Origin: Pontibacter rufus
GTDB taxonomy: Bacteria > Bacteroidota > Bacteroidia > Cytophagales > Hymenobacteraceae
Direction: 5' to 3'
Assembly: GCF_015694705.1 (NCBI RefSeq)
Contig: NZ_JADQDR010000010.1
Span: 124,001 to 188,000, forward strand
DNA length: 64,000 nucleotides
The notes under the pieces were generated by a model that saw nothing but the letters and a program-made list of their open reading frames with translations, was not told the origin of the DNA and ran no database searches. The position numbers and the translations under genes were made by a program. The first letter of the stretch is position 1. Each line of letters opens with the position of its first letter. This document shows, piece by piece, positions 19,443 to 63,613 of the stretch.

Positions 19443-19443
19443 A

Positions 19444-20361: not shown

Positions 20362-20369
20362 TGTTTTTG

Positions 20370-20377
20370 CAAATATA
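20370..20377 (-). promoter_or_regulatory. -7 promoter element of the chain-length gene
   Basis: On the minus strand TATATTTG matches TAnnTTTG. It lies only nine bases before the ATG, so the message would have almost no leader. No clear -33 box was seen. Confidence 0.4.
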
Positions 20378-20430
20378 CAAGTATAGTTCTATAAGGCATA
20401 ATAGTCTTATTTCTTTCTATTTAATTTTAT

Positions 20431-20438
20431 TACTTTTG
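20431..20438 (+). promoter_or_regulatory. -7 promoter element of the polysaccharide operon
   Basis: TACTTTTG matches the Bacteroidota TAnnTTTG element, about 80 bases before the wbpE ATG; the -33 box is weak. A promoter here would drive the polysaccharide genes that follow. Confidence 0.45.
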
Positions 20439-20518
20439 CGGAGTGATTACATTTTTTACTGTTCCAGGATTTTCTCAAACAAAGGTTTAGATCCGTTTTG
20501 CTACCCTCAGATTACCCT

Positions 20519-21658: not shown

Positions 21659-22230
21659 TGGAGTATTATAATCATGAAACTGCCATTATAGATGAGGGTT
21701 GTAAGATTGGAGATGGCACAAAAATCTGGCATTTTTCTCATATTATGTCGAATTGTACCATTGGCCAGAATTGCAACATCGGCCAGAATGTGGTAATATC
21801 TCCCGAGGTTATACTGGGCAACAATGTAAAGGTGCAGAACAATGTCTCGATTTATACAGGTGTTACCTGTGGAGATGATGTCTTTCTGGGCCCATCCATG
21901 GTTTTCACAAATGTCACGAATCCCCGCAGTGCTGTAAACAGGCGCGGGCAGTATGCTAAAACCCATGTGGGCAAAGGTGCCTCAATCGGCGCTAATGCTA
22001 CGATAGTTTGTGGCCATGATATAGGAGAATATGCTTTTATTGGGGCGGGAGCAGTTGTGACAAAAGATGTACCTGCTTATGCATTGGTAGTAGGAAACCC
22101 TGCTAAACAAACCGGCTGGATGAGTGAATTTGGTCATAAACTAAAGTTCAGCACATCCGGAGAGGCTTTATGCCCGGAGAGTAACCAGAAATATATTTTA
22201 GTATCAGGCCGCGTTCAAAAAATAAGCTAA
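21658..22230 (+). CDS. wbpD: hexapeptide-repeat sugar N-acetyltransferase, WbpD-like
   Basis: A 190-residue left-handed beta-helix acetyltransferase. Hexapeptide turns run from residue 9 to about 155 ([19 protein letters not shown], then [16 protein letters not shown]). [15 protein letters not shown] is the signature of the WbpD/WlbB group that acetylates the 3-amino group of UDP-GlcNAc3NA. The ATG overlaps the wbpE stop. The enzyme would follow WbpE in the pathway. Confidence 0.88.
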
Positions 22231-22237
22231 AAACAAA

Positions 22238-23251: not shown

Positions 23252-23296
23252 GCTGCTCTCTGCTATTTTCCGAATCAATCTGAAAAGATATCTGCC

Positions 23297-25027: not shown

Positions 25028-25082
25028 CCTTAACGCTGAACATAACTCCGATTTATACTTACAGGAATTCCCAGCTACAAAT

Positions 25083-28201: not shown

Positions 28202-28310
28202 TGAAAATAGTTACCATTATTGGAGCGCGCCCTCAGTTTATAAATAAAGAATCCGGGCAGCATTTTGCGACGGACATGCCGCAGGTAAAATCGTAGCTTT
28301 TACAAAATAG
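28201..28310 (+). pseudogene. deletion scar of a UDP-GlcNAc 2-epimerase (WbpI/WecB type)
   Basis: The ATG at 28201 overlaps the asnB stop codon (TAATG). The first 14 codons read MKIVTIIGARPQFI, the hallmark N-terminus of non-hydrolysing UDP-GlcNAc 2-epimerases. After a short junction, the final codons in another frame (28269-28310) read DGHAAGKIVAFTK and stop, matching the C-terminal end (GDGxAxxKIV) of the same family. More than 300 codons between are missing. The N-terminal frame ends at 28296 after 31 residues. An intact gene here would have converted the GlcNAc3NAcA sugar to the ManNAc3NAcA form. Confidence 0.8.
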
Positions 28311-28316
28311 AAAGTA

Positions 28317-29447
28317 ATGAGGATTGCATACCTAGTCGAAGTAGACATCACCGAAGAAACAGGCGTTACAAAAAAAATAAAAGGCCAGACAAACTCATGG
28401 GCACAGGAAGGGCATGATGTAAAAATTTTCTCATTCCCTTCAGTCCTTAGCTCTGAAGTAAGAAACAGGAAGAATATTATTGATGTAAGCTCAGAAACTT
28501 TCTTGAACCCTATAGCATCTTTTTTTAGTGGACAAGTACAAAATTACCTTAACAAGATTTTAAGCAGTCAAGCAATTGCCAGGAGTCTGCAAGACTTTTC
28601 TCCTGATATAATTTATTATCGGCAGGGAATCTGGTTTCCAGGCATACACAGAATTTTTTCTCAAAAAGCACCTATAATTTTAGAGGCAAACACCAATGAT
28701 TTAGAAGAAATAAAGCTGGAGGGTAAAGTCAGAAGAATTATATATACCTATGGCCGCAAAAAGATTTTAAAGCATGTACTTGGAGTTGTAAGTGTGACCA
28801 ATGAAATTGGGGAATATTATCAGGGCTTAGTTCCATATATCAAAACAGTTAGCAATGGCTTCGTTTTTAATGATGAAATACCTGCTCATACCCTCACTGC
28901 TAGCTTTTCTAATAAGCCCTCTCTGATATTTGTTGGAATGCCAGGTTACTCGTGGCATGGTGTGGATAAAATTTTAAGATTAGCCAGCTTGCTACCAGAG
29001 TTTACTTTTCATCTGGTTGGCTATGAAAAAGCCAATCTACCTGAGATGACTGATAATATTATTTGCCATGGTTACTTACGAAAAGATTCCCTTAAAACTT
29101 TGTATGCTACTGCCGACATAGGTATTGGTACATTAGCACTGCATAGAAAGAATATGGACGAGGCCTGCCCATTAAAAGTACGGGAATACTGTGCTTTTGG
29201 CCTGCCTGTTATTTTGGGCTACAAAGACACTGATCTGGAAGGGCAGGATTTCATATTGGATATTGGTAATTTCGAGGAAAATGTAGTTCAGAGCATTGAC
29301 AGCATAAAAAACTTTGTCAGAGCCTGGCACGGAAAGAAAACTGAAAGGTCGGTAGTAGAACCGTTGATAGGATTAAATGCAAAAGAGAAAGAACGTTTAG
29401 CGTTTTTCAAAAGCGTACAAAATGCATCTGAAAATCAGGCTAAATAA
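28317..29447 (+). CDS. glycosyltransferase, GT4-like
   Basis: A 376-residue GT-B glycosyltransferase. IIYYRQGIWFPGI and ILEANTNDLEEIKL lie in the N-terminal half; LIFVGMPGYSWHGVDKIL and KVREYCAFGLPVILG (the sugar-nucleotide site, with the EACPLK element before it) lie in the C-terminal half. It would add one sugar of the repeat unit. The gene starts six bases after the epimerase remnant and its end overlaps the next gene by 26 bases. Donor and acceptor are unknown. Confidence 0.8.
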   Translation: MRIAYLVEVDITEETGVTKKIKGQTNSWAQEGHDVKIFSFPSVLSSEVRNRKNIIDVSSETFLNPIASFFSGQVQNYLNKILSSQAIARSLQDFSPDIIYYRQGIWFPGIHRIFSQKAPIILEANTNDLEEIKLEGKVRRIIYTYGRKKILKHVLGVVSVTNEIGEYYQGLVPYIKTVSNGFVFNDEIPAHTLTASFSNKPSLIFVGMPGYSWHGVDKILRLASLLPEFTFHLVGYEKANLPEMTDNIICHGYLRKDSLKTLYATADIGIGTLALHRKNMDEACPLKVREYCAFGLPVILGYKDTDLEGQDFILDIGNFEENVVQSIDSIKNFVRAWHGKKTERSVVEPLIGLNAKEKERLAFFKSVQNASENQAK

Positions 29448-30819
29448 GTTAAACTGGCTTTTTCTGCTTCTGGTAGTCTTTTTGCTCCCTTTTACCGGAG
29501 TACCGGGGCTTCCATTCTTAGGTGAGCTTCAGGCTGATGCTTCTGCACACATTCTTCTGTTTATTTCTGTGCCGCTATTTGTGGCAACCATCCTCTTTCA
29601 GAAACGAATAAGAATCATATCAGACAGGTATTATTTTTTATTCCTCCTTTTTATCCTGCTGGTATTTGCCAATTCTGTTGTATCTCTAAACAGCTTCGAC
29701 CATATTTTTAAAGGTAAAAGCGGTTACGGCAAGTTTATACTTCAGTATTTCCTGCTTCTTTTTTATGGCGTAATTGTCTGCCATATCTTCTATAATATCT
29801 TATGCCACATAAGTTTTGAGAAGATATTGTTCCGCATAAGAAAGGCAATTGTACTATCTTATTTTATTGTATTAGGCTATGCTTTTTTCGAGATAATGCA
29901 TATCTATCATATAGAACTCTTTACGCCCTTTCTGAAAAGCATAGACCCAATCATCAGAACCGGGCAGAAATTCCACTATGTGGCTTACGGAAGAATACGA
30001 TCGATTACGCCAGAGCCTCCTTTTCTGACCCTGTACCTGGTTTTTGCCGTGCCCTGGCTGTTAAGTTACTTTCTGACTCAGCCCGGTAAACTTTTCAGGA
30101 ACTGCTTTCTCCTGCTCTCTATATTAGTTCTGGTATACTTCTCCGGCTCCAGATCGGGTCTGGTGATTATCAGTCTACAGGTTATTTTATTTTTTGCCCT
30201 GCAGGTAAAGCGCAGAATTACCGGCCGGAAGTTTAAAAAGGCTATTTACCTGTCTCCGTTTATTTTAGCGGCCCTGGCAATAATGCTGTATGTTTCAAGT
30301 GACAAGATTATTGAGCGTATCAAGTCCATCTCTGTATCGGAAGACAGCAACTTGCAGGAATCCAGCATATCGCGGTGGAGCACCCAGGAAGCCGCACTGG
30401 AAATAGCCTTGGATAATCCGGTATTCGGCGTTGGCTTTGGCCAGCAGGGCTTCTACTTTCCTGCCTATTACTCCATTTGGTCCTATAATAACAGCTATGA
30501 AATCAGGAACTGGGCCAATACGAATCTTCCTATATGGCCGCCGGGCTTCTCCATGTTTACCAGGTTAGCTGCAGAAACAGGATTCTTTACCGCCTTCTTC
30601 TTCTTCGCCATTAATTTACTGTTAGCATTGAAGTTGTTTTTAATAAGAAAGAGGTTTAAAGCACAATCTTTCGTGCTGACCATCTTAGCAACGATAAGCC
30701 TCATTACTATAGTTGGCTATATATTTGTTTATCTGCAGTGGGATTCGTTCAGATTAACAGGGTATTGGTTAGCTTTGTCCTTATCCATAATTCTTATCAA
30801 AAATGAGAGATCATCGTAA
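29422..30819 (+). CDS. O-antigen polymerase/ligase-like membrane protein (Wzy candidate)
   Basis: A 465-residue protein with about ten membrane segments and a large periplasmic loop (about residues 305-375) before the last helices. YFSGSRSGLVIISLQ followed by NPVFGVGFGQQGF is the Wzy_C/WaaL-type signature. It either polymerises repeat units or ligates them to lipid A core; a second such protein lies at 32714. It overlaps the neighbours on both sides (26 and 17 bases). Confidence 0.75.
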   Translation: MHLKIRLNKLNWLFLLLVVFLLPFTGVPGLPFLGELQADASAHILLFISVPLFVATILFQKRIRIISDRYYFLFLLFILLVFANSVVSLNSFDHIFKGKSGYGKFILQYFLLLFYGVIVCHIFYNILCHISFEKILFRIRKAIVLSYFIVLGYAFFEIMHIYHIELFTPFLKSIDPIIRTGQKFHYVAYGRIRSITPEPPFLTLYLVFAVPWLLSYFLTQPGKLFRNCFLLLSILVLVYFSGSRSGLVIISLQVILFFALQVKRRITGRKFKKAIYLSPFILAALAIMLYVSSDKIIERIKSISVSEDSNLQESSISRWSTQEAALEIALDNPVFGVGFGQQGFYFPAYYSIWSYNNSYEIRNWANTNLPIWPPGFSMFTRLAAETGFFTAFFFFAINLLLALKLFLIRKRFKAQSFVLTILATISLITIVGYIFVYLQWDSFRLTGYWLALSLSIILIKNERSS

Positions 30820-31618
30820 GGCAGTTGTTCTCATTCCGCATTACAACGATCCTGAAGGCCTGCAAAAAACAATTGCTTCCTTTTCAGAGAATGAACCCTG
30901 CGATGTACTGGTGGTGGATGATGGAAGTATAGCGCCGATTGATGAAAATAAAATTCAGGAATTATTTAAGGCCACAGGAGAAGTATTCTTTTTATATCTG
31001 GAGCAAAACAGTGGAATCGAAACTGCCCTTAACAAAGGATTAGACTGGATAAAGGAAAACGATTACCAGTTTATAGCCAGGTTGGATTGCGGCGATATCA
31101 ATATGCCTCAGCGCATCCATAAACAACTGGAGTTCATGGAAAACAACGCTGATATTCAGTTGCTGGGCACCTGGGCAGAAGCTATAGATGTAAATGGCAA
31201 TCCCCTCTATCAGCTGCATTTGCCTGCGGCACATGAAGATATCGAAAAGAAGATGTTCTTAAACAACATGTTTATACACCCCACGGTGATGTTCCGGAAA
31301 GAGGCGCTGGATGTTATCAAAGAATATCCTTACGATTACCCTGCTGCAGAGGATTATGCCTTTTTTTTTAAATTTGTCCGGAATTTTAAAACAGCGAATT
31401 TACCCGAAGTGCTGGTACGCTTCGAGATCAATACCGCAGGCGGTATTTCTTCAACCAGAAGAAGTACGCAACTCCAAACCAGAATTAAAATAATAAAGGA
31501 AAACTTTAAGTTTGGCTACTACCCCATCATGGGAATCACCAGGGCGAGCATCTTATTGTTCATTCCCAGAAACATTGTAGAATCTCTCAAAAAGCGGATA
31601 CTTTGGAAAGGAAAGTAA
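30803..31618 (+). CDS. glycosyltransferase family 2 protein
   Basis: A 271-residue GT-A transferase. VVLIPHYNDPEGLQKTIASF begins the fold, VLVVDDGS carries nucleotide-binding aspartates, and ARLDCGDINMPQRI resembles the DxD metal site (D-C-G-D). HPTVMFRKEAL and AEDYAFFFKFV complete the acceptor side. It overlaps the adjoining genes by 17 and 16 bases in a tight operon. Sugar unknown. Confidence 0.85.
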   Translation: MRDHRKAVVLIPHYNDPEGLQKTIASFSENEPCDVLVVDDGSIAPIDENKIQELFKATGEVFFLYLEQNSGIETALNKGLDWIKENDYQFIARLDCGDINMPQRIHKQLEFMENNADIQLLGTWAEAIDVNGNPLYQLHLPAAHEDIEKKMFLNNMFIHPTVMFRKEALDVIKEYPYDYPAAEDYAFFFKFVRNFKTANLPEVLVRFEINTAGGISSTRRSTQLQTRIKIIKENFKFGYYPIMGITRASILLFIPRNIVESLKKRILWKGK

Positions 31619-32724
31619 AGGTCTTACATATAGCACTGGTACTTAGCGGCGTAGAGACTTATATCAGATTGGTGGCAGCAAATATTGATGAGGCTAAGTT
31701 TGAGTTGATCATTCTCAGAGATAATGAGCAGAACCAGCTACCCATCACGTACAAATCGGGCAGAGTTGTTAAAACCTATACTTTAGACTTTGAGAGAGAC
31801 ATCCGTCTTTTAAAAGATACAAAGCTGCTGGGCCAGGCACTTAAAATAGTAAAGGCCGAATCGCCAGATATTATTCATTGCCATAGCGCTAAAAGCGGAA
31901 TAACAGGCAGAACCATCGGAGCAATATTACAAATACCTGCTTTCTATACGCCTCATGCTTTTTCGTTTTTAAGTGCCGGCAACAGTCTCAAAAGCTTTGT
32001 TTTCAAGTCTCTGGAAAGGCTTTACAGCTATACAAACAGTTATGTAATAGCGTGTTCCGAATCCGAAGGCCGGCGTGCTGTTCAGGATGCCCATTATCCG
32101 CAGGAAAGAACCTTTGTGATAAATAATTCTTTGCCAAGGCCTTCGCAGGAGCCTGTTTTTGATAATACCAGCAATTATATCTGCACCGTTGGGCGTCCTT
32201 CTTACCAGAAGAACACGCTTTACCTGCTGCAGGCTTTCAGGGAAATACATAAAGCTCTCCCCGCTTTAAAGTTATACATGCTGGGGGTGGGGCATTACTC
32301 TCCGGATCTGGAAAAGGCAAAAGAGTTTATTGCAGCAAATAACCTGGAGCATGTTGTCCGATTTTTTGAATGGACCTCCCGGGAGGAAACGCTTTCGATC
32401 CTGAGCCATAGTTTGCTTTACATCTCTCTTTCAAGGTATGAAGGTTTGTCTTACGCCGTTCTGGAAGCCATGTCTTTGGGCAAGCCCTGTATCTTGTCGG
32501 ATGTTGATGGCAATAAGGATTGTGTGGCAGATCAAAACAGCGGTCTTTTAATTGATATTGATTTACCAGCACAGGAAAGCGCTGCTGCTATTATTGATTT
32601 GCTCAGGAACAGAGACAAAGTAACAGAGATGGGGAAAGGCGCCTATAATGAGTTTCTTAGGCATTTTATTATAGATAAAAACATACAGGCTTTAGAAAGT
32701 TTATACCTTCAGTATGCTAAATAG
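31603..32724 (+). CDS. glycosyltransferase, GT4 family
   Basis: A 373-residue GT-B enzyme. KVLHIALVLSGVETYIRLV opens the N-terminal domain, IIHCHSAKSGITGRTIG follows, and SRYEGLSYAVLEAMSLGKPC is the classical GT4 E-x7-E donor-sugar motif. There is no ATG in the right place; the TTG at 31603, overlapping the previous gene by 16 bases, is the likely start. It adds a sugar to the undecaprenyl-linked repeat unit. Confidence 0.85.
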   Translation: MERKVKVLHIALVLSGVETYIRLVAANIDEAKFELIILRDNEQNQLPITYKSGRVVKTYTLDFERDIRLLKDTKLLGQALKIVKAESPDIIHCHSAKSGITGRTIGAILQIPAFYTPHAFSFLSAGNSLKSFVFKSLERLYSYTNSYVIACSESEGRRAVQDAHYPQERTFVINNSLPRPSQEPVFDNTSNYICTVGRPSYQKNTLYLLQAFREIHKALPALKLYMLGVGHYSPDLEKAKEFIAANNLEHVVRFFEWTSREETLSILSHSLLYISLSRYEGLSYAVLEAMSLGKPCILSDVDGNKDCVADQNSGLLIDIDLPAQESAAAIIDLLRNRDKVTEMGKGAYNEFLRHFIIDKNIQALESLYLQYAK

Positions 32725-33952
32725 ACTAACTGCACAGGCAATTTCATTTGAAAGGATATTAATCTGGCTGTGCATATTTTTGTTGCCGTTTAAACCAATC
32801 TACGCCAATATCCCCCTTATTATTTTTATACTGCTTGTGCTTGTGCAGCACTATAAAAACATCCATAACTTTAAACACCACGCAGGTTTATACCTCTTCT
32901 TGTCTATTTTCCTTTTGTATTTAACAGGTCTGTTTTATGCCAAAGATTTTCATACCGAATACAAGATAGTTGAGAAGAGCTTTGCTTTGCTCTTTATGCC
33001 TTTGGCCTTCGGTTTAATGCCGCAGGCTAAAGTCCACCTGGTCAGAAAAGGGTTTTGGCAGGGGCTTTTCAGCCTGGCGCTTATACTTGGCATTTATTCC
33101 TTCTATTCCGCTTACAGAATTTACAGCGAGCTTGGTTATTTACCAACAGTCGGGGCCCGGGTAAATGAGATTACGTATATTCACAGGCCATACTTTGGAT
33201 TAATCCAAACGCTAAGTTTCAGTTATGTTTTATCCCTGCTTTTCAGAAAAGGGCTTAAGATTCATCCTGTCTACTACCTGGGGCTCGCGATAGCAATTAT
33301 ATCAGTTTTCCTGGTTGTAGCCCGCTTGTCGGTCGTTGCGCTGATAATTGTTTGCTTATACTTTGTTTATGAATATTTAAGGAAAAGAGGAATCCTGAAT
33401 TTAAAGACGATAGCCGGGCTTATTCTTTTTATGGTCCTGAGCATTTCGGTGCTGAGCCAGTACAACCGGTTCAGCGAACGTTTTATTTATCTGCTGCAGG
33501 GCAAGGGCGAACCCAGAATTCTAATCTGGGAATGCGCATACCGGCAATTTACGGACAGGGACTTTAATATATTTTTAGGAAACAGAAGCGCCAGCACCAC
33601 CCAGGATAAACTTAACAACTGTTATAAAGAAGAATCTATAAATAAAACTTACTGGGCCTGGATTTATGAGTCTAAAGAGAATTTTAACACGCATAACGAA
33701 TACCTGAATATGCTCTTAAGTTATGGCATCCTGGGTTTGATTCTGCTCTTAGCATTATTCCTTTACTTATTTTTCAAATCAAGGAAAGAGGCGGATCTGG
33801 CAGCTCAGTTTTTTGTAATCGTTTTTGCATTTAATTGTTTTACAGAAAATTTGCTGGCACGCCAGGATTCCATTTTTATTTTTTGCATCTGCGCAGCCAT
33901 CATAATTTACTATAAAAAGGATGAAATTACGGTCTCCGCTCATCCTGAATAA
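32714..33952 (+). CDS. O-antigen ligase/polymerase family membrane protein
   Basis: A 412-residue protein with about ten membrane helices and a periplasmic loop near residues 265-330 containing NRSASTTQDKLNNC and NTHNEYLNMLLSYGILGL; the H-N-E element before a hydrophobic helix is the O-antigen ligase (WaaL) hallmark. Of the two such proteins in the locus this looks more like the ligase and 29422-30819 the polymerase, but that assignment is tentative. It overlaps the upstream glycosyltransferase by 11 bases. Confidence 0.75.
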   Translation: MLNRLTAQAISFERILIWLCIFLLPFKPIYANIPLIIFILLVLVQHYKNIHNFKHHAGLYLFLSIFLLYLTGLFYAKDFHTEYKIVEKSFALLFMPLAFGLMPQAKVHLVRKGFWQGLFSLALILGIYSFYSAYRIYSELGYLPTVGARVNEITYIHRPYFGLIQTLSFSYVLSLLFRKGLKIHPVYYLGLAIAIISVFLVVARLSVVALIIVCLYFVYEYLRKRGILNLKTIAGLILFMVLSISVLSQYNRFSERFIYLLQGKGEPRILIWECAYRQFTDRDFNIFLGNRSASTTQDKLNNCYKEESINKTYWAWIYESKENFNTHNEYLNMLLSYGILGLILLLALFLYLFFKSRKEADLAAQFFVIVFAFNCFTENLLARQDSIFIFCICAAIIIYYKKDEITVSAHPE

Positions 33953-34117
33953 AACTGTAAGTACGTTATTAAATTTCCGGTACGAAGTATGCTGCTATTT
34001 GCAGGCAGATACAATTGCAGCCTGAAGTTACTACAGCCATATACCTATAAGCCAGGCCCTGTTTCGCTAACCAGGTGCATTTCTAAATTAAAGCTGTCCT
34101 ATATCATAGTTATACAT

Positions 34118-34125
34118 TATTTTTG
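34118..34125 (+). promoter_or_regulatory. -7 promoter element upstream of the sugar-phosphate transferase
   Basis: TATTTTTG matches TAnnTTTG, about 100 bases before the ATG at 34227. The gap 33953-34226 holds no ORF; accagc/gctggt forms a weak stem near 34157-34194 in the leader. Confidence 0.4.
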
Positions 34126-34226
34126 AGCACAGGACAATGTTCGTTTTTAATCATTACCAGCCAACTTAGTTAATAAAGTGCGCTTGCTGGTTCTAATCCG
34201 AATTTATACTATCTGACTACTTAAAA

Positions 34227-35600
34227 ATGTCTGGTTTATATTCAAAATACATTAAGTTAATTCACTTCTTAGGTGATATTGCCGCCATAGCAATATCCAT
34301 TGTTCTGGCATATGTCCTTAGCCACTCAGTGACAGATGAACCCAATTATCTGGTATCATTTCTCTTTTCTTTAACCAGTTGGCTGCTTTGCACGGCTTTA
34401 CTAGGTACTTATAAAGTAAATCGCGTCACCAGAAGAATAAATGTGGTGTTTACGGCTCTGAAAGCGATATTGCTTTACATTGTTTTAATTGAAGCAGGGC
34501 TTAACCTGGCTGAAATTGTATCTGTGCCGCGGGAAGCTCTTTTCTTGCACTACCTGATTTTAACATGCCTGATAGTTTTCTGGAGAGTTGCCGTCACCAC
34601 GGCGCTGAGAATTTACAGGAGAAATGGCTACAACCTGCGCAATGTCATCATCGCCGGCCTGAACGATACCGGACTGGAACTTGAATACTTTTTCAAAATG
34701 CACCCCGAGTATGGCTATAACTTCCTGGGCTTTTTTGATAATAAAAGCACGGACGGAGTCACCTTAAAAGGCCGGATCAGCGAAATAGAAACTTTTGCCC
34801 TGCTAAATGATGTGGATGAGATTTATTGCTGCCCTTATGAATTAGACAAGCATGAAATAACGCAGCTTCTTGATTTCGCAGACAATAACCTGATTCGCAT
34901 TAAATTTTTACCGGTACCCGGCAGCCAGCCCTACCAGAAATTGAAAATAGATTTTAATGACGTTTTCCCGGTGCTCCTTGTCCGGGCACTGCCCCTGGAT
35001 GATGTCATTAATAAATTCATCAAAAGAGCTTTTGATATCGTCTTCTCTCTTGCCGTTATACTTTTTGTTTTGTCGTGGCTGATACCATTGGTGGCGCTGG
35101 CGATTAAAATCACGTCTAAAGGTCCTGTTTTCTTCAAGCAGACGCGTTCGGGCATAGATAACAAAGATTTCCAGTGTTATAAACTGAGAAGTATGTATGT
35201 GAATGATGATGCCAACCTGCTGCTTGCACGCAAAGGAGACTCCCGCATTACGCCTGTCGGGGCTTTTATCCGAAAAACGAGTATAGACGAGCTTCCCCAG
35301 TTTTTTAATGTGTTGTTAGGCCAGATGTCCATAGTCGGGCCAAGGCCGCATATGTTGAAGTTAGGGGAAGAATACGCGCAGGTAGCGAACAAATACATGG
35401 TGCGCCACTTCATCAAGCCTGGTATTACGGGCCTCTCGCAGGTGCGCGGCTATCGGGGCGACACCTCTGAGCTATACCAGATACGGGGCCGTGTAAAGCT
35501 GGATATCTTCTATCTTGTAAACTGGTCGTTTTTGCTTGACCTGAAGATAATTTTTTATACCATTTATAATGTTGTTAAAGGCGATAAAGCTGCTTTTTAA
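34227..35600 (+). CDS. polyprenyl glycosylphosphotransferase (WcaJ/WbaP-like initiating enzyme)
   Basis: A 457-residue membrane enzyme that transfers a sugar-1-phosphate to undecaprenyl phosphate, the first step of repeat-unit synthesis. Four N-terminal helices (about residues 10-120) precede a CoA-binding-like middle domain (NVIIAGLNDTGLELEYFF). The C-terminal bacterial sugar transferase domain starts at KRAFDIVFSLAVIL and includes FKQTRSGIDNKDFQCYKLRSM, KTSIDELPQFFNVL and MSIVGPRPHM. It has its own promoter and ends the polysaccharide region. Confidence 0.92.
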   Translation: MSGLYSKYIKLIHFLGDIAAIAISIVLAYVLSHSVTDEPNYLVSFLFSLTSWLLCTALLGTYKVNRVTRRINVVFTALKAILLYIVLIEAGLNLAEIVSVPREALFLHYLILTCLIVFWRVAVTTALRIYRRNGYNLRNVIIAGLNDTGLELEYFFKMHPEYGYNFLGFFDNKSTDGVTLKGRISEIETFALLNDVDEIYCCPYELDKHEITQLLDFADNNLIRIKFLPVPGSQPYQKLKIDFNDVFPVLLVRALPLDDVINKFIKRAFDIVFSLAVILFVLSWLIPLVALAIKITSKGPVFFKQTRSGIDNKDFQCYKLRSMYVNDDANLLLARKGDSRITPVGAFIRKTSIDELPQFFNVLLGQMSIVGPRPHMLKLGEEYAQVANKYMVRHFIKPGITGLSQVRGYRGDTSELYQIRGRVKLDIFYLVNWSFLLDLKIIFYTIYNVVKGDKAAF

Positions 35601-35679
35601 ATTTGCCCTTCTGCACAGCTGAAAGTAAACTACTGCATCTTCTCAACTCTCCACCCGCTTTTGCTACAGTTTTAGTAAC

Positions 35680-35699
35680 TTCGCCGGCAAACTGGCGAA
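35680..35699 (+). promoter_or_regulatory. small inverted repeat before the hisS start
   Basis: ttcgcc / ggcgaa (6-bp arms, 8-base loop) ends three bases before the hisS ATG. A stem so close to the start could affect ribosome access, but no function is shown. Confidence 0.25.
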
Positions 35700-35702
35700 A
35701 GC

Positions 35703-37100
35703 ATGAGCAAAGAGAAACCAAGTATACCCAAAGGAACACGCGATTTTGGCCCTGCTGTGGTGGTCAAACGTAATTATATTTTCGGCATTATCAGGCGCAC
35801 CTTCGAGAAATTTGGCTACCTGCCCCTCGAAACCCCGGCCATGGAGCAACTGTCGGTGCTGACGGGCAAGTATGGCGAGGAAGGCGATCAGCTGATCTTC
35901 AAAATCCTGAATTCCGGCGATTTCCTAGCTAAGACCACTCCTGAAGACATCAGCAAAGGGCACAAACACCTGACACGCAAAGTATCAGAAAAGGCGCTGC
36001 GCTACGACCTGACAGTACCTTTTGCCCGCTTCGTGGTGATGAACCGCAACGAGATTACATTTCCGTTTAAGCGCTACCAGATTCAGCCCGTATGGCGTGC
36101 CGACAGGCCGCAAAAAGGTCGTTACCGCGAGTTTTACCAGTGCGACGCCGACGTAGTTGGCACCAGTTCACTGCTCTGCGAAGCCGAGATTGTGCAGATG
36201 ATAAACGAAGTGCTTAGCACCCTCGGCCTTACAGATTTCACTATCAAAATAAACCACCGCGGTGTGCTGGCAGGTATAGCCGAAGCCATTGGCGAAAAAG
36301 GCCGCGAGAGCGATATCTGTGTAGCCATTGACAAGCTGGATAAAATCGGGCCGGAAGGCGTGCGCAAGGAGCTGCTGGAGCGCGGCATTTCTGAAAAAGC
36401 TGTTGACAAGCTGGAGCCCCTTTATACTTTGAGCGGCAGCAACGAAGAGCTGCTGGAGCAATTGCAGGTTATACTTGGCGAAACAGCAGAAGGGCAGCGC
36501 GGCCTGAAAGATCTGCGCGAAGTGTGGGCATACTTACTGGGTCTCAACAGCCAGGCATTATCAGCGCAAAATGCGTCCGGTATTCCGCGCCTGCTGCTGG
36601 ACGTAACCCTGGCACGGGGCCTCTCCTATTACACCGGCTGCATCTTCGAGGTAAAAGTTAACAATGTAAGTATGGGCAGCATCAGCGGGGGCGGCCGCTA
36701 CGATAACCTGACGGGCATGTTTGGACTGCCGGGTGTGTCGGGCGTGGGCTTTTCGTTTGGCGTAGACCGTATTTACGATGTGCTGGACGAATTGCAGCTC
36801 TTCCCGGACAGCAGCCAGGCAGGCACCAAAGTGCTAATCGTACAGTTCGATAAGGAATCGGAGTTGTATGCTTTGCCTTTGCTGCAGCAACTGCGCGATG
36901 CAGGCATTGCCGCCGAACTATACCCCGAAGCAGCCAAACTGAAAAAGCAGTTGAGTTATGCCGATCAGAAAAACATCCCTTATGCGCTGCTGATTGGCTC
37001 TGAGGAAATGGCAAGCGGGCGGCTTAAACTGCGCAACATGCAACGCGGCGAACAGCAGGAACTGGCTATCAACGATGTTATCGCCCATCTCACCAGATAA
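35703..37100 (+). CDS. hisS: histidine--tRNA ligase
   Basis: Class II aminoacyl-tRNA synthetase of 465 residues, normal length. KPSIPKGTRDFGP is the N-terminus; motif 2 is in FQIQPVWRADRPQKGRYREFYQCDADVVG-type sequence (about residues 120-145); LARGLSYYTGCIFEV is the HisA histidine-binding motif; GGGRYDNLTGMFG and GVGFSFGVDRIYDVL include motif 3. The C-terminal anticodon domain begins near VLIVQFDKES. It lies eight bases upstream of hutH, so the two histidine genes are probably co-transcribed. Confidence 0.97.
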   Translation: MSKEKPSIPKGTRDFGPAVVVKRNYIFGIIRRTFEKFGYLPLETPAMEQLSVLTGKYGEEGDQLIFKILNSGDFLAKTTPEDISKGHKHLTRKVSEKALRYDLTVPFARFVVMNRNEITFPFKRYQIQPVWRADRPQKGRYREFYQCDADVVGTSSLLCEAEIVQMINEVLSTLGLTDFTIKINHRGVLAGIAEAIGEKGRESDICVAIDKLDKIGPEGVRKELLERGISEKAVDKLEPLYTLSGSNEELLEQLQVILGETAEGQRGLKDLREVWAYLLGLNSQALSAQNASGIPRLLLDVTLARGLSYYTGCIFEVKVNNVSMGSISGGGRYDNLTGMFGLPGVSGVGFSFGVDRIYDVLDELQLFPDSSQAGTKVLIVQFDKESELYALPLLQQLRDAGIAAELYPEAAKLKKQLSYADQKNIPYALLIGSEEMASGRLKLRNMQRGEQQELAINDVIAHLTR

Positions 37101-57506: not shown

Positions 57507-58829
57507 TTGAAAAAGCAAGACGCTCTCCATCTCTTATACATCTCCTACTACTGGCCTCCTTCAGGCGGCCCGGGTGTGCAGCGCGGACTCAAGTTTGTAA
57601 AATATTTTCCGCAGTCCGGCATTATCCCCACCATACTTACAGTAGATGAAAAGCAGGCCTCCTACCCGCTGCTGGACAATACGTTGCTGGACGAAGTTCC
57701 TGAAGGTCTGGAGGTTTACAAAACAGCTACGTCTGAACCATTTGAGTATTACAAAAAACTGTCCGGAAAAAAAGAGATTCCGTACAGCGGCTTTGCCAAC
57801 CAGGAGTCGGAAGATTCCTTTTTAGATAAGGTCTTCAAATTTGTGCGCGGTAACCTGTTTATACCGGATGCCCGGGTGGGCTGGAACAAACATGCCTTAA
57901 AAAAAGCCGGCGAGTTGCTGAAAGATGGCAGGTATAGAGCCATCATCACCACTAGTCCACCACATTCTACACAGCTGATCGGCCTGAAACTGCGCAAAAA
58001 GTATAACCTGAAATGGATAGCCGACCTGCGTGACCCCTGGACGAACATCCATTATTACGATCAGCTTTACCACACACAGCTAGCCAAAAGCGTCGACGAA
58101 AAGTATGAGCGCCAGGTGCTGGCAGAGGCTGATGCCATAATTGTTACCAGCGAGGACACCAAGCGCCTTTTCCTGAACAAGCCGGTAAGTATAAGCGCAG
58201 ACAAGATCCATGTGATTCCGAACGGCTTCGATGAGGATGATTTTAGATACCCTTCTGTGCCACCCAAAGATACATTTCTGATAACGTACGCCGGCACCAT
58301 TACCGAAAACTACAACATTGATGTATTCCTGAAAGTAATGGCGCATCTGCTATCGGTGCACAGCGAGATAAACTACAAGCTCCGTTTTGTGGGCAAAGTA
58401 TCGGAGGGCATAAAGCAGCGGATTGAGAAAGCAGGCGTGCTGGGCATCACCGAATTTATACCTTATGTGCCGCACGATCAGGCCATCAAATACCTGATGG
58501 AAAGCACTGCGCTCCTGCTGGCGATGGCCGATGTGCCGAGCGTGTACGCCAACGTACCCGGAAAATTATTCGAATACCTGGCCTCCAACAAGCAAATTAT
58601 CTGCCTGGGCCCCGTGCATTCCGATACCGACCATATTATAGACGAGTGCGGGGCAGGCCGCCTTTTCCACTACGCTGCCTACGACCTGATGCTCGACCAT
58701 ATGATCCAGATGAGCAAAGCCTGGAAGATCAACCCGAACCTGGATTTACCTTACATCAACTATGCCCGATACTCCAGAAGAGCGCTAACCGAAAAGCTGG
58801 CAGAAGTAATTAAAGAGTTGCTAATGTAA
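57507..58829 (+). CDS. glycosyltransferase, GT4-like
   Basis: A 440-residue GT-B enzyme. LLYISYYWPPSGGPGVQRGLKF opens the N-terminal domain and is characteristic of a group of Bacteroidota glycosyltransferases; ITYAGTITENYNIDVFLKVM begins the C-terminal domain and VPGKLFEYLASNKQIICLGP is the donor-binding segment. No ATG is in the right place; TTG at 57507 is the likely start, 26 bases after a good -7 element. It stands outside the main polysaccharide locus. Sugar unknown. Confidence 0.85.
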   Translation: MKKQDALHLLYISYYWPPSGGPGVQRGLKFVKYFPQSGIIPTILTVDEKQASYPLLDNTLLDEVPEGLEVYKTATSEPFEYYKKLSGKKEIPYSGFANQESEDSFLDKVFKFVRGNLFIPDARVGWNKHALKKAGELLKDGRYRAIITTSPPHSTQLIGLKLRKKYNLKWIADLRDPWTNIHYYDQLYHTQLAKSVDEKYERQVLAEADAIIVTSEDTKRLFLNKPVSISADKIHVIPNGFDEDDFRYPSVPPKDTFLITYAGTITENYNIDVFLKVMAHLLSVHSEINYKLRFVGKVSEGIKQRIEKAGVLGITEFIPYVPHDQAIKYLMESTALLLAMADVPSVYANVPGKLFEYLASNKQIICLGPVHSDTDHIIDECGAGRLFHYAAYDLMLDHMIQMSKAWKINPNLDLPYINYARYSRRALTEKLAEVIKELLM

Positions 58830-58904
58830 GGCTAACTTTGCCTTGTATCAGGGATGAATTTTGAAAGCATGCTGCATTACCAGAAGCCTCCAAAAATGCG
58901 GTTT

Positions 58905-59010
58905 ATACAAACAATGGGGCTAAAGGGGCTCAGGAGCAAGTGCTACGGAGACAAGGGCTATCTTTCTTCTCTGGTGAGGAACTCCTGCAAGAGAGCGTAT
59001 TATAAAATAC
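58905..59010 (+). mobile_element. remnant of an IS982-like transposase
   Basis: The frame reads LKGLRSKCYGDKGYLSS, then continues after a frameshift as GEELLQESVL and stops. The xYGDKGYLS segment with its EELLQ follow-on matches the DDE region of IS982-type transposases. No intact frame or terminal repeats remain. The fragment borders the downstream end of the AT-rich minus-strand island and is evidence of past insertion. Confidence 0.55.
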
Positions 59011-59046
59011 CTGAAGCCGCAATATTTTATGCGTCTCTTTTATACA

Positions 59047-59424
59047 TCACTTTTTCATCTTCTTCAGGAACTCTCTGCCAATGTCATTGGCGTCCTCAAT
59101 AAATTTATTCTTTATTTCAACCTGTTCATCTTCAGAGCAATGAGACTTTCCTGCTTGAGAGGTTTGAACATCCAGATTAGGCATTCTGATTTTTTGCGCC
59201 GTATCTTCCGGCATTATGGATTTCCCCACGCCGCTTGTTCTAGGTATGTAATTCTCCTCTTTAAGATGAACAACTATAGTATACCTTTCACCATCATGTG
59301 AAATTTTACCATAGAGAATGGCATCCTGTTCTGATATCTTTATATCAGAAGCACAATTAAATTCCTTTAGACAACCTTGTAAGTTGTTAAGAAGGTCTTT
59401 GAAGAAATGACTTGAATTTTCCAT
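59047..59424 (-). CDS. hypothetical protein, last gene of the isoprenoid-like island
   Basis: A 125-residue hydrophilic protein I do not recognise. No signal peptide or membrane helix is visible. Residues 1-60 read as a small alpha/beta domain (FFKDLLNNLQGCLKEFNCAS, then ILYGKISHDGERYTIVVHL), followed by a polar linker and a helical tail (IKNKFIEDANDIGREFLKKM). It is 18 bases behind the upstream gene on the same strand, so it is probably the final gene of the island operon. Low GC. Confidence 0.55.
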   Translation of the reverse strand: MENSSHFFKDLLNNLQGCLKEFNCASDIKISEQDAILYGKISHDGERYTIVVHLKEENYIPRTSGVGKSIMPEDTAQKIRMPNLDVQTSQAGKSHCSEDEQVEIKNKFIEDANDIGREFLKKMKK

Positions 59425-59442
59425 TATAGTATACTTTAGGGG

Positions 59443-60123
59443 TTAACGGGGAAGTAAAGCCAGTGAAACTCGGTCGTTTACGTTCGTAGTTCCAGAACCG
59501 GACTTCTCCGCGCTGCCAGGTAAATAATAGAGTAGGTCAAACTGTCTCCTGCCTAAAAGGCCCAGAAAATTATCTAATTGTTCCTGGAGGGTGCCGATTG
59601 CACCTGGTACTGCTGAACTTAACCTGCCTGATATCTCACCTGTACAAAACGGACCGCCACCATCATAGTCATATGCCCAGCCATCAACACGAGCGCCAAC
59701 GGTGCCAGTACTATCTAAAAAGCAAGCAATAATATAATCTATGTGCCCGTCAGCATCAGTACAATACCAGGGTGTAGAAATGTGGAAATTGAAAGACAGG
59801 CGAAGAAACAAATCCAAAGCTCCGCCTGATGATGAATATGGCAGATATTTTCTCGGCACCCATCCAATCCTTAAATCTGATGTGCGTTGTGCATCTCCTA
59901 AACTGCTGTCTATCAAATTCAGAACAATAGGATTATTCAGAAGACTTACTAAGTCGTAAGTTACTTCTCTATCTTCACGTTCCCAGGTGAGCGTGCTGCG
60001 TTTCTCCCCAATGTTTGACCAGTTAATCCAAGCCCAGCCGCCGGCGGGATGCTGAATACTTAAAAAAACAGTTTCACCACGAAAGTCTGTATCCTTGAAC
60101 CAGTAATTTGAAAGTGTAGGCAT
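59443..60123 (-). CDS. hypothetical beta-rich protein of the isoprenoid-like island
   Basis: A 226-residue protein I do not recognise. It is tryptophan- and glycine-rich with predicted beta strands (GETVFLSIQHPAGGWAWINW; LRLSFNFHISTPWYCTD; ARVDGWAYDYDGGGPFCTG), and has no signal peptide. Its ATG is preceded by aaggaggttgtt, a full Shine-Dalgarno sequence, unusual in this phylum and absent from the neighbouring genes. The island order places it downstream of the cyclase-like gene, separated by 61 bases. Confidence 0.55.
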   Translation of the reverse strand: MPTLSNYWFKDTDFRGETVFLSIQHPAGGWAWINWSNIGEKRSTLTWEREDREVTYDLVSLLNNPIVLNLIDSSLGDAQRTSDLRIGWVPRKYLPYSSSGGALDLFLRLSFNFHISTPWYCTDADGHIDYIIACFLDSTGTVGARVDGWAYDYDGGGPFCTGEISGRLSSAVPGAIGTLQEQLDNFLGLLGRRQFDLLYYLPGSAEKSGSGTTNVNDRVSLALLPR

Positions 60124-60184
60124 AACAACCTCCTTGTTTTAAATTGAACTTGAATAAGAGCTGGTGTTTAAAACAGCTTATTGC

Positions 60185-61234
60185 TTAGTTAAGAAACATT
60201 TTATTGTATAGATGCAGGGCTGAACTTATGGTTGCAGTCGTAAATAGCTTATTCTGGTCTTCGATAATTACACCAGTACCCATTTCACCTGTTCTCCACT
60301 GTATCAGGGTTTCAGGATTAGAGATCATAGGTGGCGGAATCCGGAGGATGGGTGCAGAAGGCCAGCTACCATCCGTAAGCTGGCTTTGTAAAAGATAGTC
60401 AATACACTTTGAAACAGTTTTTATTCTTCTTTTATCAGGCAAAAGCAGTACTGTTCGTAAGAACAGGGCAGTATTAAACAGGCTCCTTTCGTTGTTTTCT
60501 ACCCAATAACCTTCGACAGACATTCTGCTGATAACTACGTCTATAATTTTTTTTGCATCCCTGATAGAAATATGTTTTGCCAGCAACAAGGCTTTCAGGC
60601 AATGGAAAGTGCTATAGGCATTGCCCTGCCACCAATAAGAGTTCCAGAGTTTATTGGATTGCTGGTTCTCCGTTAAAAACCGGCAGGCCCTGTTAACAAT
60701 TTGCTGGTCTGAATAAAGCTTATTAAATAAAAGGCTTTGCACTGCCACTGCCGTTACGCATGTATGAGAACCCAGCCATCCCTTTGTCAGATTTTTGTTT
60801 GCTTCAATATATTGCTCGATATGATCTTTTGGCGCATAAGTTGTAAAACCACCATCATCGGTATTAAAATGATCTCTGATAAAATTAATACCCCTGATCA
60901 TCGCTGAAGGCCGCCAGAGTGGCAAACCACTGAAAGCCATCATTACCCAGGAAGTGCTATCTGCATCTGTCGGGACTTTGTGATTATAGGCCCAGCCACC
61001 ATTTGCTCTCTGTCTGGTTAAAAGTATTTTATGTGCCTTGTCAATCGGGCAAGAGTAATCAGCCAAAAGAGACAAAGAGCTCAAGACAAAACCACTAACC
61101 CATTCGGATGATGCACCAGCCAAGGTGTCAAAATCATACCAGAGTCCATCCGGCGCCCTTTTCCCATGGATGTACCGGGTGCCAAGGTTAATGCTCCTTT
61201 TAAGTTCTTCCTGTAACGATTCACTTACAACCAT
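60185..61234 (-). CDS. prenyltransferase/squalene-oxidase-repeat protein (class II terpene-cyclase-like)
   Basis: A 349-residue alpha/alpha-toroid protein. QW-like repeats are DGLW (29-32), RQRANGGWAYN (74-84) and SQLTDGSWPS near the end. A DADST motif at D90-A91-D92-S93-T94 occupies the place of the DxDD acid of class II cyclases such as squalene-hopene cyclase, in which the middle Asp protonates the substrate. At about half the length of a squalene cyclase it would form a single toroid. It starts eight bases after the class I-like gene, so the two should be co-translated and could act in sequence. Confidence 0.75.
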   Translation of the reverse strand: MVVSESLQEELKRSINLGTRYIHGKRAPDGLWYDFDTLAGASSEWVSGFVLSSLSLLADYSCPIDKAHKILLTRQRANGGWAYNHKVPTDADSTSWVMMAFSGLPLWRPSAMIRGINFIRDHFNTDDGGFTTYAPKDHIEQYIEANKNLTKGWLGSHTCVTAVAVQSLLFNKLYSDQQIVNRACRFLTENQQSNKLWNSYWWQGNAYSTFHCLKALLLAKHISIRDAKKIIDVVISRMSVEGYWVENNERSLFNTALFLRTVLLLPDKRRIKTVSKCIDYLLQSQLTDGSWPSAPILRIPPPMISNPETLIQWRTGEMGTGVIIEDQNKLFTTATISSALHLYNKMFLN

Positions 61235-61242
61235 ATGGAGAT

Positions 61243-62343
61243 TTAACTAAGCCAGTCTCTTATATAAAATAGTAGTATTTGCCTGAACCGTAGATCTGCT
61301 TCATTATCTGTTCCTGAGGAAGAAATTGAAAGTTCCACTCTTTGAATTTTCGAGCAAAGATGATTTACTAAACGAGGCAGATTATCTGTCGCCAGGATTT
61401 GCGTGATGGCGCCTTCACCCATTATACAACCCTTACCTTCCTGATTACAGAAAAGTGAATTCAATTGATTGGTTTGATAATCAGAAACCGCATCCGCCAG
61501 ATCATCGAGCAACCAAAAGATCTCTCCTATTGTATAGGACAGCCTTTCAACAGATTGCTCAATGTTTTTATCTGCTTTCGTTTGCGCAACAGCTATATTC
61601 TTTATAATTCTGAACGGTAATGTTGATTTGCTTTTCGATACCTGTCTTAAATTTACTTCCTCATTTATATCCTCCTGTAATTGGGAATTTATCTCGGCCT
61701 GATAAGCCTGTAACAATAATTGGTTGATTTTTTTTAAAGCATGTCTGTTATCAGCTTCTTGAACAGTTGAATAAAGGGTTTGATAAAAGCAGGCGATCAC
61801 CTTCAACAAGATCCTGATTTCATTTTGCTCTATTGTGTCACAGCGCTTATAAAAGATCGAACCTGCGTGCTTATTGCCTTGGATCTCATGAAGAGCCTGG
61901 CTGTTAAAAATCGATTTAAATTCATCTTTTACTTCTTCTTCCGAGCTATCCAGGAAAAAATCAAATAATGAAATACCTAAATTGAACAGGGAAGTAGTTT
62001 GCGCTATCTGGTGCTTCCGCTCCTGATCTCCTGAAACTAATGTGTGAAAGCCGGCTCCTAATTCATACCCGAAGGCAAGGGAAAAAGGCAGTTTATGTTT
62101 CAATACATGGTTAAGCTTTCCGAAAGCTGCTTCGGAGTTAATTACAGCAAAATCATCCGGCCCGAGGGCATCTTTAAGGAGGCTATTCCTAAGTACCAGC
62201 CCCTCCTCCTTTTGTCCACTCCATAGCGCGCTGTACTCATCTGAATTCAACCACAAGCTCTTTTCTTCAAGTTTGTGTACAATGGTCCGGCGGGTTTTTA
62301 GCCACAATTCATCCAGTAAAAAAGGTACGGGCCAGTCGCTCAT
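61243..62343 (-). CDS. class I isoprenoid-biosynthesis-like enzyme
   Basis: A 366-residue all-alpha protein. Two aspartate-rich motifs are spaced as in trans-isoprenyl synthases: D128-FFL-D132 followed by SSEEE, and D280-DLA-D284 in WLLDDLADAVSDYQ. DxxxD motifs of this form are found in head-to-head (squalene/phytoene) synthases and related class I prenyl enzymes; they bind diphosphate through magnesium. Overall identity to known families is not apparent by eye. It lies directly upstream of the toroid cyclase-like gene on the same strand. Confidence 0.65.
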   Translation of the reverse strand: MSDWPVPFLLDELWLKTRRTIVHKLEEKSLWLNSDEYSALWSGQKEEGLVLRNSLLKDALGPDDFAVINSEAAFGKLNHVLKHKLPFSLAFGYELGAGFHTLVSGDQERKHQIAQTTSLFNLGISLFDFFLDSSEEEVKDEFKSIFNSQALHEIQGNKHAGSIFYKRCDTIEQNEIRILLKVIACFYQTLYSTVQEADNRHALKKINQLLLQAYQAEINSQLQEDINEEVNLRQVSKSKSTLPFRIIKNIAVAQTKADKNIEQSVERLSYTIGEIFWLLDDLADAVSDYQTNQLNSLFCNQEGKGCIMGEGAITQILATDNLPRLVNHLCSKIQRVELSISSSGTDNEADLRFRQILLFYIRDWLS

Positions 62344-62446
62344 TTAGAAGCCGTTTAGAATTTAAGTATATGGGTTACCCGGATAAACAGGAAAATAAAG
62401 CAACGCAGGGAGAGAAAACGAACCCCTCACCTCTCAAAACTTTATA

Positions 62447-62707
62447 TTAAATGTTTCTGTATGGATGAGTATTGTTGTGGTTATCAGCTCCTTTCTGGTC
62501 CGATAGTCTATATTTTCTTGGTAACTGGTCTTGATCTAAGAGTATACTCGCTCTAATTTGAGCTGCCAGATCTCTGGATACCTGCTTCCTGTTTCTGATA
62601 CTGATAGCTATAGGGCTTATGCTTTGTTTTAAGTCTAAGCTTCGGAATGATTTTGTAGATTTATCTATTGTACATTCTTTAGGTATTTTAATAAACAGTT
62701 TTACTGC
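62447..62707 (-). other. 86-codon open frame without ATG between island genes
   Basis: An open frame runs 86 codons from a stop at 62708-62710 to the TAA at 62447-62449, with no ATG, GTG or TTG that would use most of it (first rare candidate: ATT at 62690-62692). The translation is hydrophilic and protein-like (for example SLDLKQSISPIAISIRNRKQ). It lies in the 401-base gap between the repeat protein and the class I-like gene. It may be a chance frame, a gene with an unusual start, or a degenerate gene. Confidence 0.2.
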
Positions 62708-62744
62708 TTAATAGGCAACAGAGAAAATAACAATAGCAAAGACC

Positions 62745-63332
62745 TTAATCCCTGACGATTAGAGGCCTGTTAACCATTACTGACATTATTTTCATCTCAA
62801 AATCTTCAGGAGATTCAAAGGGGAATACCTCTTCCGGTATTTTTTTGATCATTTCCCGGGCATTTACATACCTACCTTGAAAGGCATATTGTTCGTTTTC
62901 ATTCATTTGCCTGGATAATTCCTCAGCTGAACGGATAGGAAATTGAAGATGGGCCACATATCGTCTAATCGATTCCATTTCTCTTGGCACATCTACCTGC
63001 TTGCGGTTATCTCTTATAAGATCTGCTAATTTTTCAATAAAATTTTCGATTGAGGCGATGGGAAAATAGTAAGAGGGCATGTATTTAATCATCCGCATTG
63101 GATCTACATTTACTTCTGCAATCGTGTATTCCTTTCCCGAGCCACCCAGTTTTTCTATCAGCTCAGCAGCGCTGTTTATAGGGAAGTCCAGGGAGGGAAT
63201 ACTGCGGAACACTTTCTCAATTTCTAGCATGTCATGCTCATGAACTAACGGAATGTAATTTACATGTGCAATTCTCTGTACTATTTCTGAAACTCTTTGA
63301 TTGTTCCTGGGATCAAGTCTGGAATATGCCAT
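62745..63332 (-). CDS. four-repeat F-P protein of the isoprenoid-like island
   Basis: A 195-residue protein I do not recognise, built from four units with a period of 39-41 residues. Each unit centres on an F-P pair followed by an acidic helix: F50-P51 (LDFPINSAAELIEKL), F90-P91 (YYFPIASIENFIEKL), F131-P132 (LQFPIRSAEELSRQM) and F170-P171 (EVFPFESPEDFEMKI). No signal peptide or membrane helix is seen. It comes between the 58-residue peptide gene and the isoprenoid enzymes, so a scaffold or peptide-binding role is imaginable but unproven. Confidence 0.6.
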   Translation of the reverse strand: MAYSRLDPRNNQRVSEIVQRIAHVNYIPLVHEHDMLEIEKVFRSIPSLDFPINSAAELIEKLGGSGKEYTIAEVNVDPMRMIKYMPSYYFPIASIENFIEKLADLIRDNRKQVDVPREMESIRRYVAHLQFPIRSAEELSRQMNENEQYAFQGRYVNAREMIKKIPEEVFPFESPEDFEMKIMSVMVNRPLIVRD

Positions 63333-63436
63333 TGATTTAAAATTTAAAAGGAAAATAGAATAAGTAGTAAAGTATGAAAGAAATGGAGCTTATAGTAACA
63401 GATATGGCCAGTTCAGGAAATGGCCATATATTAAAA

Positions 63437-63613
63437 TTACCACCCTCCACTACTCTGTCTATGGTCTTCGTATTTTATTAACCATCCACCGCTATCGTAT
63501 TGAGGGCAAGGTTCATCCGAGTCCCGGCACCACGTTTGCCACTCCCCAGAAACCGATCCGTAATAACAGGAAAAGTTTCGATCATCCTGACAATTACCTG
63601 AAATCCATGACAT
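63437..63613 (-). CDS. 58-residue Cys/Trp/Gly-rich small peptide
   Basis: A short frame on the minus strand, ATG at 63611-63613 to TAA at 63437-63439, 58 codons. It has four cysteines (C8, C16, C29, C36), five tryptophans (W3, W25, W28, W44, W58) and ends SSGGW. It has no hydrophobic signal segment. It is the first gene upstream of the repeat protein, on the same strand, 104 bases away. Size, residue bias and position suggest a secreted or modified peptide precursor. The upstream 63614-64000 region shows no clear gene. Confidence 0.5.
   Translation of the reverse strand: MSWISGNCQDDRNFSCYYGSVSGEWQTWCRDSDEPCPQYDSGGWLIKYEDHRQSSGGW

Follow-up and report, generated by a model that had tools for sequence, protein, structure and literature searches.

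Positions 59047 to 63613 of a 64,000-nucleotide stretch of Pontibacter rufus DNA (the whole of which we call the window) carry on the minus strand six open reading frames (ORFs), which encode proteins of 58, 195, 366, 349, 226 and 125 amino acids. The genes for a class I isoprenoid-synthase-like enzyme and a class II cyclase are only 8 bases apart, and the other spacers measure 104, 401, 61 and 18 bases. The GC content of this island is 0.404, compared with 0.476 for the rest of the window, and is the minimum among 119 segments of equal size. A sequence-only reading of the same DNA had noted the six genes in one orientation, the short spacers and the low GC content, and our measurements agree with it on these points. 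The genes are as follows.

63437..63613, minus strand: 58-amino-acid peptide (MSWI...GGW), encoded by the leading gene of the unit; likely substrate; GGW codons at 63440-63448
62745..63332, minus strand: tandem MTH865-like protein of 195 amino acids (PF07747), putatively recognising or presenting the peptide
61243..62343, minus strand: class I enzyme of 366 amino acids, with Asp motifs and an isoprenoid-synthase fold in its model; proposed peptide prenyltransferase
60185..61234, minus strand: monodomain class II terpene cyclase of 349 amino acids, MstE-like, DADST motif at 60953-60967
59443..60123, minus strand: 226-amino-acid protein of no known family, 3' of the cyclase, not conserved; probably accessory or unrelated
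59047..59424, minus strand: 125-amino-acid protein of no known family, not conserved; probably unrelated

Four of these genes form a conserved unit. Related loci were obtained from a single class II-pair scan of genome contigs (six loci, of which the distant L048 and L049 were left out) and from a class II search of the order. Four loci, from two phyla, carry genes for the peptide, the MTH865-like protein, the class I enzyme and the class II enzyme, in this order and all in one direction:

the window
Rhodocytophaga aerolata (L009, which is also L044)
the alphaproteobacterium Oceaniovalibus sp. ACAM 378 (L046)
the Proteobacteria metagenome-assembled genome (MAG) WH4.bin15 (L047)

Protein identity across these syntenic loci is 27-59%. 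In both proteobacterial loci there are overlaps of a few bases among the MTH865-like, class I and class II genes. The genes are not scattered in these four loci, and the set that the sequence-only reading proposed to seek in other Cytophagales is found, in the same order, in R. aerolata. That reading had taken all six genes for one unit, which holds for four of them; counterparts of the 226- and 125-amino-acid genes were not found in the related loci, and we therefore place both outside the conserved unit. The smaller of these two proteins matches no family in Pfam and the other libraries scanned, and the larger matches none in such libraries at the limits used, apart from one match at E 0.1.

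A fifth locus, in Streptomyces rubellomurinus (L045), holds a class II gene, a divergently oriented class I gene and a 30-amino-acid form of the peptide, and a two-sequence profile found no MTH865-like match in that genome. The window's class I gene matched one of 204 family genomes and one of 395 phylum genomes, its own each time, and 6 of 390 order genomes, its own among them, have a match to the class II gene. The peptide profile matched 2 of 261 order genomes, which are exactly the two that bear the unit. Class II matches occur in 35 of 70 genomes of the genus Streptomyces (E <= 0.001) and in 3 of 248 genomes of the family of the Oceaniovalibus locus, but close matches are confined to the starting genomes (6.5e-68, the next being 4.5e-14, and 4.4e-72, the next being 1.9e-10, respectively). 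Judged by these matches, the unit is sporadic.

The reduced unit of S. rubellomurinus lies in what appears to be a wider neighbourhood (L045:3081-11121) for a ribosomally synthesized and post-translationally modified peptide (RiPP). The genes there encode a PatG-like subtilase (PatG_C 3.6e-30), a tetrapyrrole-methylase-family protein (YabN model 2.8e-11), which we take to be of the kind found in borosins, and an NHLP-like protein below cut-off. Several small ORFs share an LP-x-LAPP-like start.

Three other full-length peptides are 47-59% identical to the 58-amino-acid peptide of the window, and 24 columns are identical in all four, among them MSWI, GNCQ, four cysteines and the final Gly-Trp. 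W3, W28 and W58 are invariant in these four sequences; when the Streptomyces form is included, W3 is kept in 5/5 peptides and the C-terminal GW in 4/5. The AlphaFold2 model of the peptide has three strands, with a predicted local distance difference test score (pLDDT) of 75, falling below 50 in the last three residues, and a predicted template modelling score (pTM) of 0.55. From this model and the four sequences, the peptide resembles a small folded domain whose Trp tail is loose more than it does a precursor made of leader and core. The best match of the model in the PDB, at E 1.3, is noise, and the best match of the peptide profile to PDB sequences (E 0.029 over 30 columns) was discounted.

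The 195-amino-acid protein, previously described as an F-P repeat protein, consists of tandem MTH865-like domains. Two stretches exceed the cut-off of family PF07747 (44.6 bits, gathering cut-off 25, 1.2e-11), and the protein is the sole match to this family in its genome; its three counterparts are 36-45% identical to it. Among 14 control genomes the family matches only three archaea, whereas the form described here is tandem and bacterial. MTH865-like domains have been described without known function (PMC9674854). In the literature searched, MTH865 appears in one paper only, on Methanoperedens plasmids, and the MTH865-like profile has no match among PDB sequences at E 0.1. Because the single locus whose peptide lacks the GW half, that of Streptomyces, also lacks an MTH865-like gene, the five loci hint that this protein may serve the C-terminal half of the peptide. 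A role in defence was considered and rejected, since the sole PADLOC match, that of the MTH865-like protein to a Cas13a model (E 0.0024), was discounted.

The 366-amino-acid protein had been called prenyl-synthase-like, a description that its fold and Asp motifs support but its Pfam score does not, as PF00348 (Polyprenyl synthetase) reaches 21.9 bits, below the gathering cut-off of 27. In a Pfam scan of the class I proteins of L009, L046 and L045, none has a match at E 0.01, and the best match of the class I profile to PDB sequences is E 0.24. The AlphaFold2 model has a pLDDT of 86.4 and a pTM of 0.88. Its Foldseek matches at E <= 0.001 number six, every one a prenyl diphosphate synthase (best 3.7e-4), and a VIA comparison with a prenyl diphosphate synthase gives a Z of 17.9 over 274 residues, with a root-mean-square deviation of 4.1; the usual best Z for unrelated helical models is ~14. 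As modelled, the class I enzyme has an isoprenoid-synthase fold and is trans-isoprenyl diphosphate synthase (trans-IDS)-like, rather than being an unrelated helical protein. D128-x3-D132 and D280-D281-x2-D284-x3-D288 are invariant in 5/5 class I enzymes encoded separately from their cyclases, which we term split. The spacing of the first motif is that of D89/D93 in PalQ, the C-terminal Trp prenyltransferase of Paenibacillus alvei (PMC10853753). A PalQ variant without two Asp of the second motif remained active (PMC10853753), and the second motif alone is therefore no proof of prenyl transfer.

The cyclase was predicted to be a half-size class II enzyme, which is upheld by a PF13243 match (2.6e-11) and by its relatives in the PDB. 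A profile of five class II sequences matches 8paj (1.7e-56), MstE (4.7e-50) and 6ij1 (3.6e-45) nearly end to end, and matches squalene-hopene cyclase far more weakly (1.6e-23). The window protein as a single sequence matches MstE at 1.9e-31. Its DADST motif aligns with DADTT of MstE, and DxDST is kept in 5/5 split class II enzymes. By these comparisons of sequence, the ~350-amino-acid single toroid, with its full-length match and DxD[DTS]T motif, is an MstE-like monodomain terpene cyclase. Assignment as a squalene-hopene cyclase was rejected, because TIGR01507 gives 32.4 bits against an equivalog value of 431.1 and 349 amino acids is below double-domain length. The substrate of MstE is a dihydroxybenzoate that already bears the geranylgeranyl chain to be cyclised (PMC9401909), whereas the window cyclase is linked to a peptide gene.

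Related enzyme pairs also occur as single proteins. ChrPC (Hubrich et al. 2024) is presented in a review as a prenyltransferase-cyclase fusion of RiPPs, in which a trans-IDS-like P domain puts a C10-C20 donor on an internal Trp and a C domain cyclises the chain (PMC13290415). Our order and phylum searches in Bacteroidota yielded eleven fused class I-class II proteins (L010, L012, L013, L050-L054 and L057-L059), which we call ChrPC-type because of their architecture, not from a sequence comparison with ChrPC. L051 is included although its frame ends (10766) before the end of the class II match (10964). Of the 395 phylum genomes, 37 match a mixed class I profile. We did not count the 26 that score worse than G586 (E 2.3e-7) and regard their matches as ordinary prenyl synthases; most of these cover 63-109 profile columns, and two cover 142 and 154. 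G429 (L055) and G409 (L056) scored above G586 but were not counted as fused.

Leader-motif peptides lie near 10/11 fused loci (not L059), and all 17 such peptides in those ten loci carry Trp behind the motif. If a single peptide is counted for each locus and set against the background frequency of Trp, the chance of this is ~2e-6, for a motif chosen after some of the peptides were seen. An M50 protease homologue is near ten of the eleven loci (not L051) and a radical S-adenosylmethionine (SAM) homologue near six. Of the M50 proteins scanned, two match a daptide metalloprotease model (2.7e-39 and 3.2e-39). RiPP maturase models are matched by two radical SAM proteins, and every one of these four matches is below the equivalog cut-off of its model. 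By these gene associations, the fused enzymes of Bacteroidota sit in RiPP-like clusters. Peptide prenylation had been proposed as new for Bacteroidota; in kind it is not, given the fused enzymes that adjoin precursor-like peptides in ten loci, and ChrPC as covered in PMC13290415.

Some loci found in these searches have features of their own. The clusters L013:7714-16736 and L050:2635-10410 are alike: each encodes a fused enzyme together with a P450, a radical SAM protein and an M50 homologue. Their precursor-like peptides end in CWIG or CWLA, and L013 has three near-identical copies. A class II-class I pair in reversed order is found at L011:9241-11817, behind a 207-amino-acid protein that has an HEIxH motif, a C-terminal GSGSWV and no Pfam match. 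A further split pair may lie at L056:8802-10776, where the neighbour of a class I-like gene encodes a 300-amino-acid protein that carries a DLDDT motif and is without a Pfam match at E 0.01. The class I-like gene at L055:21-4221 is without a cyclase match, and the leader-motif peptides there are Cys-rich and lack Trp.

From the genes and their conserved linkage, from the fold and motif assignments and from the conserved peptide, we infer a substrate, an acceptor residue, an order of steps and a role for the MTH865-like protein. In our best reading, the window unit would be related to the ChrPC-type peptide chemistry of prenylation followed by cyclisation, but split and mobile: a horizontally acquired cassette that modifies its own small protein. 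The class I enzyme, with a prenyl diphosphate and Mg2+, would place a prenyl chain on an exposed residue of the 58-amino-acid peptide, most likely a Trp, either that of the C-terminal GGW or W3. The class II enzyme would then protonate the far end of the attached chain and cyclise it as MstE does. The tandem MTH865-like protein would probably recognise or present the C-terminal half of the peptide, and the product would be a small protein with a polycyclic terpenoid anchor. We assign a probability of about 0.58 to the peptide being a prenyl acceptor whose attached chain is cyclised. A fuller picture is possible but tentative: a folded mini-protein with four Cys might receive its prenyl group on the Trp of a loose GGW tail, presented by the tandem MTH865-like protein, and a second enzyme might turn the chain into a polycyclic anchor, so that a four-gene cassette moving between phyla would be a bacterial counterpart of C-terminal protein prenylation.

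Several observations weigh against our best reading. Neither a leader motif nor an M50 protease nor a radical SAM protein was found in the four-gene loci, so that the invariant Trp residues of the full-length peptides stand without a leader motif, unlike those of the fused loci. The Streptomyces peptide is short (30 amino acids) and has no GW end, and the fold model of the window peptide is only moderately confident. A Gln just upstream of the second Asp motif is described as a determinant of Trp recognition (PMC13290415). This Gln is missing in 5/5 split class I enzymes, which in this respect are not PalQ/ComQ-like, in contrast to 9/10 fused class I enzymes that have Gln at -3 or -1 (the exception is L050, and L052 was outside the set). 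Profiles of split and fused class I enzymes align over 70 columns with a probability of 12.7% and an E of 0.0023. The window cyclase is 27-31% identical to the L011 cyclase and to three fused ones; since the cyclases are kin but the class I alignment is weak, the class I partner appears to belong to another branch. In a class II tree of 17 rows the order among split rows is unresolved; a poorly supported branch (47/37) has the fused rows to one side of it, and three long branches are flagged. The acceptor may be Trp through another recognition mode, or Cys, or there may be none if the enzymes make a free terpenoid.

The last of these options corresponds to a compact small-molecule terpenoid or meroterpenoid pathway, one of the two functions suggested by the sequence-only reading, in which both enzymes would act on prenyl compounds in free form, with the peptide and the MTH865-like protein as regulators or accessory subunits. 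The class I fold is near prenyl synthases and a terpene synthase such as epi-isozizaene synthase, the substrate of the related MstE is a small prenylated acid, and the Gln linked to Trp recognition is lost. In MAG WH4.bin15, moreover, a canonical prenyl diphosphate synthase gene overlaps the class II end (PF00348 2.8e-44), an observation that favours our best reading as well. We nonetheless consider such a pathway unlikely. The peptide stays with the enzymes in 5/5 loci, if in short form in Streptomyces, and aromatic prenyltransferase or P450 genes were not seen among the listed ORFs that adjoin the unit in the four-gene loci, which were inspected by eye and partly with Pfam. Peptide prenylation, the other suggested function, is better supported because the peptide is conserved and found only beside the enzymes, and because the fused relatives lie in RiPP-like clusters.

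S-prenylation by the class I enzyme of one of the four invariant cysteines, as in protein prenylation, would also agree with the missing Gln, and the cyclase profile weakly matches geranylgeranyltransferase beta subunits (E 0.0015). However, all characterised trans-IDS-like peptide prenyltransferases act on Trp, according to PMC13290415. Moreover, W3, W28 and W58 are as invariant as the cysteines in the full-length peptides, and four Cys in a small domain may merely form disulfides or a metal site, which makes a Cys acceptor rather improbable. The rarity of the set, its AT-richness and its place at a variable site next to a conserved glycosyltransferase gene might also suggest a chance neighbourhood or a decayed insertion without joint function. 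This is very improbable, given that the four reading frames are all open and that their synteny is kept across two phyla at 27-59% protein identity.

Our preferred reading, in which the peptide is prenylated and the chain then cyclised, invites comparison with known systems. ChrPC likewise combines class I (trans-IDS-like) and MstE-like class II parts that act sequentially on a peptide, as proposed here, but it is one fused protein, whereas the window has two ORFs 8 bases apart. We therefore do not file the window unit as a ChrPC-type member, and its likeness to ChrPC is by description only; most likely it works like a split system of this type. It differs further in its class I branch, in the missing leader motif and folded-looking peptide ending in GW, in its tandem MTH865-like protein and in its spread beyond Bacteroidota. 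PalQ shares the isoprenoid-synthase superfamily and the D-x3-D first motif, and its substrate peptide also ends in Trp, GW and GGW ends being preferred (PMC13290415). PalX, however, carries an NHLP leader, the PalQ cluster as described has a histidine kinase and no cyclase (PMC10853753), and the Gln upstream of the second motif is absent from the window enzyme. The parallel with ComQ drawn in the sequence-only reading extends to a distant analogue only: in ComQ/ComX of Bacillus a class I-like enzyme also adjoins a small Trp-bearing peptide, but that system has no cyclase and no MTH865-like protein. A census reports comQXPA-like loci only in Firmicutes (PMC4008528).

The general chemistry is already known, whereas the four-gene set and its small protein look new. 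The set is not described in the titles and abstract openings listed by a literature search, most subscription papers being outside its reach. If our reading is correct, terpene-on-peptide chemistry would include, besides the fused RiPP enzymes, a split and mobile cassette that two phyla share and a third has in reduced form. A role open to testing would be on hand for MTH865-like domains for the first time, and proteins could be terpenylated at a short C-terminal tag by class I and class II enzymes that are separate from each other.

Past the downstream end of the island, a glycosyltransferase gene lies on the opposite strand (57507-58829), and cupin and alcohol dehydrogenase genes lie past the upstream end. 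The glycosyltransferase is matched in 25/25 other same-genus genomes searched and is 79-84% identical in the eight same-genus flanks fetched (L098-L105). The five larger island proteins have no match in the ~10 kb behind it in these eight genomes (the peptide was not among the queries). Because the glycosyltransferase is conserved, the five larger island proteins are missing from these eight flanks and class I and class II matches are rare, the four-gene unit is most simply explained as an acquired insertion, horizontally gained. A transposase remnant had been suspected at one border but was not confirmed: the plus-strand ORF concerned (58854-59102), the only frame considered, is without a Pfam match at E 0.01, and a second copy of its DNA was not found in the genome. 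A phage origin was rejected, as PHROGs gave no match for the five proteins scanned (class II was not among them), and relatives of class II and of the peptide are absent from the viral contigs. In plasmids, the class I enzyme, MTH865-like protein and peptide have no match, and class II gives three weak matches (25-29% identity).

Behind the conserved glycosyltransferase, the gene content is unlike that of the window in 8/8 same-genus genomes and often includes apparent sugar-nucleotide genes, as at a variable site. Elsewhere in the window, positions 19001-36000 form a second AT-rich stretch, with a GC content of about 0.38-0.45 in 2-kb segments.

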